From Maricaulis maris (GTDB lineage Bacteria > Pseudomonadota > Alphaproteobacteria > Caulobacterales > Maricaulaceae), in NCBI RefSeq assembly GCF_036322705.1, contig NZ_AP027270.1, positions 1,427,501-1,491,500 of the forward strand: a stretch of 64,000 nt of DNA, written 5' to 3'. Below the pieces are notes generated by a model. The model saw only the letters and a list, made by a program, of their open reading frames with translations, made no database searches and was not told the origin of the DNA. Each line of letters begins with the position of its first letter. Position 1 is the stretch's first letter. A program made the translations under genes and the position numbers. Of the stretch, positions 26,052 to 27,635 are shown piece by piece.

Positions 26052-26080
26052 CGTCTCGGCTGATCCCGCCCCCCCGCAAG

Positions 26081-26117
26081 AAAAAGGGCCCGGCAATCAG
26101 TTGCCGGGCCCCTTTTA
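26081..26117. terminator. Bidirectional terminator between RimK-like and entericidin genes
   Basis: A perfect 11-bp stem GGGCCCGGCAA / TTGCCGGGCCC (26086-26096 and 26101-26111) with a TCAG loop, five A before and CTTTTATT after. It serves the convergent RimK-like and entericidin-like genes. Confidence 0.92.
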
Positions 26118-26144
26118 TTCAGACGTTTGGTGTCAGGCGCAGGG

Positions 26145-26273
26145 TCAGGAACCCGCATCCTGGATCACTTCGCCGGCGTCCTCGATATCCTGACCCGCGC
26201 CGCGAATGGTGTTGCAACCTGCAAGACCGAGCGCGAGGAGGGTGACTGTCAGACATGCAATGAACGTCTTCAT
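26145..26273 (-). CDS. Entericidin-like small lipoprotein
   Basis: A 42-residue lipoprotein. The product begins MKTFIACLTVTLLALGLAGC, a signal peptide with lipobox LAGC (cysteine 20), followed by NTIRGAGQDIEDAGEVIQDAGS. The mature part of about 23 residues fits the entericidin A/B family (short, GxGxDI(E/Q) motif). Entericidins are membrane-associated lipopeptides described as a toxin/antidote pair in E. coli; here only one copy is visible. AAAGGG lies upstream of the ATG. The gene ends at a strong terminator. Confidence 0.85.
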   Translation of the reverse strand: MKTFIACLTVTLLALGLAGCNTIRGAGQDIEDAGEVIQDAGS

Positions 26274-26678
26274 GATTGAGCCCTTTCCGGTGCATCGCTG
26301 CCATCATGCACGAAATCGCCTTTTGCAGCAATGAAATCGGGGAAATCCGGCATCGTGCAACCCCGGGTAATGGCCGGGCGATAGCCGGGCAATAACTGCG
26401 ACCGGCACACATTCCTGCGCGGCCGGGACACGCTGACAAATGTGCCTGTCCCGATTTTCCCCTAAGCTCCCTCCCACCCCTTCGGCGCAACAGCGTGCGG
26501 AGCCGGAACACGTGGGCGCGCTGGCAAGCGTCCAATGGTGAAGTTTGTGCTTGGGCGCGGGGAATGAGGTTGATTTATTGTGTCTCTCCCGGTTTCTTCC
26601 CCGGTTTCTTCCGGGGCTCGCTTGATCAAGCGATCACAGCGTGGACGTTGGCCCTCTTGATTGTGAACGGAGAGGCAT
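26274..26678. other. 405-base intergenic region upstream of entericidin and Imm-HIRAN genes
   Basis: This divergent spacer should contain promoters for both flanking genes. It holds a tandem 12-base duplication (CCGGTTTCTTCC at 26589-26600 and 26601-26612) and a 16-bp perfect palindrome at 26618-26633. No credible open frame is present. Confidence 0.6.
26618..26633. promoter_or_regulatory. 16-bp perfect palindrome, candidate operator
   Basis: TCGCTTGATCAAGCGA is a perfect palindrome ending 45 bases before the ATG of the Imm-HIRAN gene, a position suited to repressor binding. No regulator can be named from sequence. Confidence 0.4.
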
Positions 26679-27248
26679 ATGGATGGCGCAGGGCTCCTGA
26701 TTGTTGTCGTGCTGGCCTATTTCCTACCGGCGGTGATTGCGGGGCTAAGGCAGCACCATAATGCCGGGGCGATTTTCCTGACCAATCTGCTGCTGGGCTG
26801 GACCTTTCTTGGCTGGGTCATCGCGCTGGTATGGTCGGCTACGGCGACGCGCCGCTCTGATGGTGAACACCTATCCGGGCGGCGCCCGCATGGGAGGATG
26901 GGCGTTGGCATGTCGATCCCGGAGCGGCGCCCTGTTGCTCAGGAACTGCGTATTGCGCTGACGGGGGAGGATTTCGCCAATCCGAACGGTGTGGAGCGGC
27001 AATCGCTGATCGCCGGTCTGCAGGCAGGCTACACCCTGAGCCTGGCGGCCGATCCGGAGAATGTCTTTGATCCGCGTGCCGTGGCAGTGATGTCGGCAAC
27101 CGGCGTGATCGGATATTTGCCGGATGACTATGAAGATGTGCGCGCTGCCATTCGCCGTGGCCGGGTCTATCCGGCGCGCGTGGCGATGATCGACCGCAAG
27201 TCCAATGGCAAGCTGGGGGTCGTGGTCGGTCTGACGCCGCCGGATTAG
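26679..27248 (+). CDS. Superinfection-immunity-like membrane domain fused to a HIRAN-like domain
   Basis: A 189-residue protein in two parts. Residues 5-56 form two membrane helices (AGLLIVVVLAYFLPAVIAGL and IFLTNLLLGWTFLGWVIALV) around the short loop RQHHNAG. This is the pattern of the T4 Imm-like superinfection immunity family. After an Arg/Gly-rich linker (about 57-88), residues 89-187 resemble a HIRAN domain: LQAGYTLSLAADPENVFDPRAVAV then TGVIGYLPDD. HIRAN domains bind DNA 3' ends in HLTF/Rad5-type helicases and occur alone in bacteria. The topology would leave the HIRAN part cytoplasmic. The ATG has GGAGAGG 3 bases upstream. A role in blocking phage DNA entry is a hypothesis only. Confidence 0.75.
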   Translation: MDGAGLLIVVVLAYFLPAVIAGLRQHHNAGAIFLTNLLLGWTFLGWVIALVWSATATRRSDGEHLSGRRPHGRMGVGMSIPERRPVAQELRIALTGEDFANPNGVERQSLIAGLQAGYTLSLAADPENVFDPRAVAVMSATGVIGYLPDDYEDVRAAIRRGRVYPARVAMIDRKSNGKLGVVVGLTPPD

Positions 27249-27328
27249 GGCGCGACATGGGCTTAGGCGTGGCGGGGCAAGCGAAGAAAAAGACCACACT
27301 GGCGTAAGAGAAAAACGGGCACCCGTAC

Positions 27329-27416
27329 CCATTTCCAGATCCGGAAAAATGGGAACAGGCACCATTATCGGGCAGGTTCGGTGCGTCCGTACCAACGGAA
27401 ATTGGTGCCTGTCCCC
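27329..27416. repeat. REP-like palindrome cluster
   Basis: Two nested inverted repeats. The first is CCCATTTCC / GGAAAAATGGG around 27329-27352. The second has imperfect 16-17-base arms GGGAACAGGCACCATT (27351-27366) and AATTGGTGCCTGTCCCC (27400-27416). The GGTGCCTGTCCC core resembles REP sequences that accompany REP-associated tyrosine transposases in many proteobacteria. No transposase gene is present here. The rest of 27249-27547 shows nothing I can assign. Confidence 0.55.
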
Positions 27417-27547
27417 GTTAATTTAGCGCGTTAGAACGCCTTGCTCGGGCATCAGAGGAAGCGGACCCTCTGCAAGCGACGGAAACCTGGCGGGAGTTTG
27501 GAAGGTCGTTGGATCCGGTCCAGAAAACGGGATCCGGGGCAGGGCAG

Positions 27548-27635
27548 TGGCGGAGGGGGAGGGATTCGAACCCCCGGAACCTCGCGGCTCAACGGTTTTC
27601 AAGACCGCCGCAATCGACCACTCTGCCACCCCTCC
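27548..27635 (-). tRNA. tRNA-Ser(UGA)
   Basis: On the minus strand the sequence folds as a class II tRNA. The acceptor stem GGAGGGG pairs with CCCCTCC (27629-27635 and 27552-27558). The anticodon loop CTTGAAA contains TGA, a long variable arm follows, and the T arm has GGTTCGAATCC. CCA is encoded at 27548-27550. The long variable arm and UGA anticodon identify tRNA-Ser. Confidence 0.96.

Follow-up and report, generated by a model that had tools for sequence, protein, structure and literature searches.

Within the 64,000-nucleotide stretch of Maricaulis maris DNA analyzed here (the window), we found a gene whose product joins an Imm_superinfect-type membrane domain to a HIRAN domain, and a second copy of the same fusion lies in a tailed prophage, co-oriented with and directly behind a gene for a Cro/C1-type regulator. 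Both modules of the fusion are known; their combination is rare and was not encountered in the literature we searched. We tentatively favor the interpretation that it is prophage-derived superinfection-exclusion cargo whose cytoplasmic HIRAN domain would sense phage DNA at the inner membrane.

A membrane hairpin is joined to a C-terminal domain by an arginine-rich linker

The reading frame of the fusion gene begins with ATG and ends at a stop after 189 codons, and its GC content by codon position (0.71/0.48/0.71) is gene-like. Its features are as follows.

26679..27248, plus strand: Imm_superinfect-HIRAN fusion gene, ORF of 189 aa with a full-length homolog in L131
26669..26675, plus strand: Shine-Dalgarno-like GGAGAGG, three bases 5' of the fusion gene start
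26691..26747, plus strand: hydrophobic segment 1, residues 5-23 (Kyte-Doolittle scan; helices in the full-length model)
26772..26828, plus strand: hydrophobic segment 2, residues 32-50 (Kyte-Doolittle scan; helices in the full-length model)
26718..26837, plus strand: PF14373 Imm_superinfect match, residues 14-53 (Pfam E 2.1e-17)
26844..26939, plus strand: Arg-rich linker, about residues 56-87 (Arg/Lys count; pLDDT near 50 at its center)
26940..27239, plus strand: HIRAN domain, about residues 88-187 (Pfam, PHROG, relatives, profile, and AlphaFold2 model)

A full-length AlphaFold2 model built from 19 sequences placed helices within residues 3-55, followed by a low-confidence linker and then the same domain as in the model of the C-terminal 109 residues described below. 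There are seven Arg/Lys in residues 54-88 versus one in residues 23-33, and by the positive-inside rule both ends of the protein, and hence the C-terminal domain, should be cytoplasmic. A first-pass annotation of the DNA had proposed the architecture of a membrane hairpin plus HIRAN; profile searches, the structure model, and one full-length homolog bear it out, and the existence of that homolog in L131 speaks against a sequencing or annotation error as the origin of the fusion.

The N-terminal half belongs to the Imm_superinfect family

The N-terminal half scored 63.2 bits against PF14373 in Pfam, where the cut-off is 27.9, and matched phrog_1039, 'immunity to superinfection', in PHROG (E 5.6e-23). 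Two membrane-spanning helices are predicted, both by the hydrophobicity scan and by the helical N-terminal region of the model, and the T4-like phage Imm proteins among the matches listed align with residues 3-63 at about 49-53% identity.

PF14373 is, in addition, widespread in bacteria as a two-helix module joined to unrelated domains. Across all fetched loci we counted 107 distinct ORFs with PF14373-type domains (distinct by sequence from domain to stop), 78 of which end no more than 30 residues past the domain. The module is joined elsewhere to VasI (L031, L044), to AAA+ (L078, with an Imm score just below the cut-off), and to zinc-ribbon-like stretches (L047, L104; the zinc ribbon is below the Pfam cut-off), and it carries tails in some proteins that we take to be SHOCT-like. 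Such joinings would be expected if the window gene arose by a chance domain shuffle in which a common two-helix module came to anchor a HIRAN for DNA repair, nucleoid-membrane contact, or another housekeeping purpose, with no anti-phage role. We consider this explanation rather unlikely and return to it below.

The VasI-type proteins (L031, 4995-6230; L044, 412-1704, minus strand) combine Imm_superinfect with a C-terminal domain of the Pfam type VI secretion system VasI, EvfG family; both are from Alphaproteobacteria, one of them from the genus of the window. A second phage-borne Imm combination, seen in L046, L047, L104, and L081, consists of the hairpin, a zinc-ribbon-like stretch, and a tail that, as in R656 gp065, is presumably SPOR-like. 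In Pseudomonas phage R656, Cronobacter phage S13, and Pseudomonas aeruginosa plasmid NZ_CP086015, tblastn matches spanned more than half the length of the window protein but were rejected as fusions because the extra coverage was zinc-ribbon-like or ran past the stop into a neighboring frame and was not HIRAN. An apparent match to residues 10-150 at G649:C1:2604108 was also rejected, as the Imm gene stops there and is followed by unrelated sequence.

The C-terminal half is a HIRAN domain

Taken by itself, the window protein matched PF08797 (HIRAN) in Pfam with an E of 0.0025 and 18.0 bits, below the cut-off of 24.7, and matched phrog_27141 over residues 88-188 in PHROG with an E of 1.2e-11. 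As a lone query it retrieved no HIRAN structure from the PDB, where the best match (E 0.087) was a different protein, and no HIRAN model from NCBIfam, where there was only a weak flavodoxin match (0.075). The PF08797 cut-off was passed by all eight of the HIRAN relatives scanned from genomes and plasmids (L037-L041, L043, L049, L050), most of which share with the window protein the motifs G-x-x-x-x-N-x-x-G-x-x-R-Q, P-x-N-x-[aromatic or His]-D, and I/V-G-[YW]. More broadly, our HIRAN set comprises 39 distinct ORFs when compared from domain to stop and 36 when deduplicated by domain alone; among the 36, N-x-aromatic/His-D is present in 19, R-Q or R-R near the start is likewise present in 19, and the domains without N-x-aromatic/His-D or R-Q/R-R are mostly low-scoring matches.

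A profile made from the window domain and the eight relatives matched the HIRAN of human HLTF in the PDB (E 7e-6, 43 profile positions), and we take F130-D131 of the window protein to correspond to Tyr93-Asp94 in HLTF numbering. An AlphaFold2 model of the C-terminal 109 residues, built from nine sequences, reached a pLDDT of 92.7 and a pTM of 0.84 and contained six strands and two helices. This predicted element count equals the description of the HLTF HIRAN, a six-stranded barrel covered by two helices in which Tyr72 and Tyr93 have a role (PMC4666394). With the relatives over the cut-off, the HLTF profile match, and the confident model, we regard the HIRAN assignment, which had first been made from the letters of the sequence, as good, although the Pfam score of the window protein itself is below the cut-off.

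A full-length homolog lies behind a regulator gene in a tailed prophage

L131, a locus from the viral collection, encodes a 181-aa homolog that is 41% identical (residues 8-181, E 1e-39) and scores above the Pfam cut-offs of both domains (Imm, 60.5 bits; HIRAN, 37.3 bits). It lies in a 38.1-kb viral record, a tailed prophage. The seven large genes scanned on its minus strand encode terminase, portal, major head, head-tail adaptor, tape measure, tail fiber, and antiterminator; the terminase is that of phrog_9, and phrog_2 terminase was not found in the record. An integrase is encoded on the plus strand at 37.6-38.0 kb. The fusion gene, likewise on the plus strand, is directed away from the late genes and lies 12 nt behind a gene for an HTH_3/HTH_26 Cro/C1-type regulator in the same orientation, whose likely start was placed from the position of the HTH domain. 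A divergent small repressor-like gene points toward the late genes; it matched phrog_35 weakly (E 0.008) and no Pfam family. Between this gene and the regulator gene, TTCTCA/TGAGAA repeats occur at 2337, 2346, 2363, and 2384, which are four of the eight plus-strand occurrences in the 6.3-kb L131 locus.

This arrangement resembles a C1/Cro switch in which the fusion gene would belong to the lysogenic side, the C1 identity being read from gene direction. In phage lambda, rexAB directly follows C1, and in Pseudomonas putida two genes separate a RexAB-type pair from the C1-like gene upstream of it (PMC12894663). By analogy, the L131 fusion gene may occupy the rexAB-like place of lambda; a position behind a C1-type repressor in a prophage is true of L131 if the HTH regulator is C1-type and is not found in the window. 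The place of the L131 gene directly behind a regulator gene would also suit a phage-autonomous factor, one that does not act in exclusion but holds DNA or replication intermediates of its own prophage at the membrane or adjusts the lysis-lysogeny switch, and lambda RexA itself is reported to modulate that switch (PMC12894663). We think this improbable, as the frame of the window copy is intact and no recognizable phage genes surround it.

The fusion is rare

The fusion was absent from all 18 other genomes of the genus searched. Matches were found in 29 of 61 genomes in the first search (the window's own included), 58 of 299 in the order sample, and 21 of 398 in the phylum sample, and each time the whole protein was present only in the genome of the window. 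A two-sequence profile matched 69 of 137 genomes of the family sample, with the whole fusion in one (the window's). The genus/first-search, order, phylum, and family samples overlap. In the class sample, the C-terminal half was matched in 6 of 385 genomes, including the window's own, and PF08797 at E 0.001 in 13 of 385, with 12 over the cut-off and the genome of the window not among them. In the fetched loci, 2/107 distinct Imm ORFs carry HIRAN and 2/39 distinct HIRAN ORFs carry Imm, in both cases the window and L131. Two further scans of viral contigs with the fusion as query yielded no additional fusion, a scan of genome contigs returned five loci with no fusion among them, and no description of an Imm_superinfect-HIRAN fusion was found in the titles and abstract starts of the papers listed from the open-licence PMC literature. 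Presence in 1 of 137 family genomes is a poor fit to a housekeeping role, as is the prophage location of L131 and of the G032 HIRAN described below.

In free trees, the halves of the window and L131 proteins had different neighbors, and the HIRAN of L131 grouped beside L071, from the bacterial family of the window, with support of 94/97. A joint window-L131 clade was not rejected, with p-AU values of 0.51 for HIRAN (24 rows) and 0.88 for Imm (103 rows, 54 columns), in trees with long branches. The HIRAN branch of the window measured 1.83 changes per column versus a median of 0.82. Such a branch might be expected of a decaying prophage leftover that is functionless in the window strain, and the fusion gene stands alone between an entericidin gene and a tRNA, as a leftover might. 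We nevertheless give this explanation little weight: the open frame is full-length, with a Shine-Dalgarno-like site and gene-like codon-position composition, and the motifs NVFD and RQ are kept in the window HIRAN.

The fusion gene lies in a segment of variable content beside a tRNA 3' end

The surroundings of the fusion gene are marked by the following features.

26145-26273, minus strand: entericidin gene, upstream of the fusion gene, passing PF08085
26619..26632, no strand: perfect 14-bp palindrome CGCTTGATCAAGCG, upstream of the fusion gene, single genome copy
27548-27635, minus strand: tRNA-Ser(TGA), with its 3' end toward the fusion gene and at the border of the variable segment

A RimK-like gene (PF14401, PF08443) also lies upstream of the fusion gene, and the fusion gene is alone between the entericidin gene and the 3' end of the tRNA-Ser. 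Family searches of ten neighbors between 21.3 and 32.4 kb gave ordinary bacterial functions throughout (oxidoreductase, hydrolase, acetyltransferase, rlpA-like, carboxypeptidase, thymidylate kinase, DNA polymerase III subunit, TatD, RimK-like, and entericidin) and no phage structural, lysis, or integration family, and housekeeping neighbors such as these are in keeping with a chance shuffle. A search for an att repeat of the tRNA-Ser 3' end found none; the last 12 bases of the tRNA occur once in the window.

No relative of the fusion is encoded in the 11 same-genus rimK regions that we fetched. In the seven of these with a tRNA in the fetched stretch (the other four were left out of the comparison), the gap from rimK to the tRNA ranged from 37 to 3425 nt. 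By eye, entericidin-like genes are present in the gap in four of the seven, all without the fusion (L120, L125 with two, L128, and L129), and the tRNA lies 66-97 nt away from the entericidin gene in L120, L128, and L129 versus 1274 nt in the window. Other cargo, also assigned by eye, includes a 650-aa TPR/cyclase-like gene in one relative and several genes in another. As the content differs among relatives, the fusion gene occupies a variable slot at the tRNA 3' end. Integrated elements often occupy tRNA 3' ends, and phage integration at this slot is plausible. The segment from the rimK-like gene to the 3' end of tRNA-Ser(TGA), 26052-27547, is perhaps a small integration hot spot.

Two local signs that the first-pass annotation had counted toward an accessory character did not hold up. 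Relatives without the fusion also have an entericidin-like gene between rimK and the tRNA, and the supposed palindromic operator, CGCTTGATCAAGCG, occurs once in the genome and is thus no repeated operator; 14-bp palindromes are found at six positions in the window. Between the fusion gene and the tRNA there is a 22-nt imperfect inverted repeat (27348-27369 and 27398-27419) with GGTGCCTGTCCC-type arms, which we take to be REP-like. The sequence TTGGTGCCTGTCCC occurs once in the genome.

Membrane anchors and prophage settings recur among HIRAN proteins

A hydrophobic stretch beyond the domain itself was seen in ten HIRAN ORFs. Two of these were set aside as not membrane-anchored, L098 because the stretch is signal-like and L180 because it is internal, which leaves a convincing segment in 8 of 39 distinct HIRAN ORFs, both fusions included. 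The membrane helix is N-terminal in L037, L041, and L139 and C-terminal in L134, L136, and L147; L131, L134, L136, L139, and L147 are from viral contigs, and L037 and L041 are from genomes. Membrane anchoring of HIRAN thus appears to recur with unrelated anchors, and the plain N- or C-terminal helices of the six proteins other than the fusions are a further point in favor of a chance shuffle. Since other anchors occur on HIRAN and other cargo on Imm, neither feature is unique to the window gene; it is their combination that is rare. The frame at 1333-1797 of L098 encodes a HIRAN relative with a signal-peptide-like N terminus, which suggests export and a non-DNA role for some HIRANs.

In G032, from the same family as the window, a stand-alone HIRAN gene (L079, 6346-6783) lies in a prophage early region near genes for a repressor (phrog_4), a RuvC-like resolvase, a DnaB-like helicase, and a methyltransferase. 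An IS-type transposase gene and, by eye, a malic-enzyme-like gene are also near this HIRAN gene. The PADLOC candidate PDC-M03B matched the HIRAN part of the window protein (best 8.4e-8), which likewise suggests a phage context for HIRAN.

A possible role in superinfection exclusion

The reading we tentatively favor is superinfection exclusion, for which we infer the topology, the DNA ligand, the descent of the window copy from a prophage, and the action against phage as follows. The fusion gene would be a prophage-derived accessory gene, now alone beside tRNA-Ser, and its product a small protein of the inner membrane that serves in superinfection exclusion. Its Imm-type hairpin would anchor it with both ends in the cytoplasm, and at the membrane the tethered HIRAN may detect or hold the ends of phage DNA or single-stranded intermediates of replication or recombination. 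This hold on the DNA would stop or abort a second infection, with the hairpin serving as anchor or effector and the HIRAN as DNA-side sensor or clamp. The place of the L131 gene in its prophage, behind a regulator gene, would by analogy lend the anti-phage idea indirect support. Several observations count against an exclusion role: the window neighbors are ordinary bacterial genes and the tRNA 3' end has no att repeat; PF14373 is generic, with HIRAN on so few of its ORFs; the signal-like N terminus of the L098 HIRAN is a hint that cytoplasmic DNA is not the target of every HIRAN; and the prophage context comes from one homolog, L131, in which the assignment as C1 rather than Cro is inferred. 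Among the family matches of the window protein there was no nuclease or other effector domain.

A more specific version, which we judge doubtful, would make the fusion a one-polypeptide counterpart of RexAB, in which the HIRAN acts as cytoplasmic sensor of single strands or of phage DNA ends, and infection is aborted by the Imm hairpin as membrane effector. Imm is reported to resemble a holin (PMC6832632), and the hairpin might open or reorganize once HIRAN binds DNA. If this counterpart reading were true, L037, L041, L134, L136, L139, and L147 would join a so far unnamed class of sensors. The Imm-HIRAN fusion is a small, expressible test case for both Imm and prokaryotic HIRAN, and if the outcome were positive, a domain familiar from fork reversal in eukaryotes would be connected with phage exclusion at the membrane.

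Comparison with known systems

The window protein shares with T4 Imm (PF14373, phrog_1039) the two-helix membrane domain, well above the Pfam cut-off; the T4-like matches end at the hairpin, whereas the window protein adds a folded domain of 100 residues. Imm together with Spackle brings about exclusion (PMC7677548), and how Imm stops phage DNA is described as still unclear (PMC6832632). Gp065 of Pseudomonas phage YMC11/02/R656, of which L047 is a closely similar plasmid copy, has a similar hairpin and a soluble C-terminal part and is encoded between phage tail genes, but this part is zinc-ribbon-like and then SPOR-like, not HIRAN, and the tblastn coverage beyond residue 60 is not homology.

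With lambda RexAB and RexAB-type exclusion, the fusion would have in common a DNA-side part and a membrane part, together with the location of the L131 gene behind a Cro/C1-type regulator. RexAB is two proteins, whereas the Imm-HIRAN fusion is one polypeptide. No Rex family was among the Pfam or PHROG matches of the window protein, and as there is no sequence relation to RexA or RexB, the likeness is at most one of working in a similar way.

HipN/HipL and PDC-M03B share the HIRAN domain with the window protein, which differs from HipN/HipL in being membrane-anchored; no HipA or HipS family was among its Pfam or NCBIfam matches. The bacterial HIRANs of HipL/HipN have been proposed as sensors of invading phage DNA ends (PMC8262856), and prokaryotic HIRANs are called uncharacterized (PMC11090510).

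Compared with the HIRAN of human HLTF, the window protein has, in NVFD, the aromatic-Asp motif where HLTF has NPYD. With regard to DNA-end binding, its motif residues are conserved in part. By eye, HLTF Phe142 has no evident counterpart in the window HIRAN; most bacterial HIRANs are without this residue (PMC8262856). In HLTF the HIRAN domain is combined with a helicase, whereas in the window protein it is combined with a membrane anchor.
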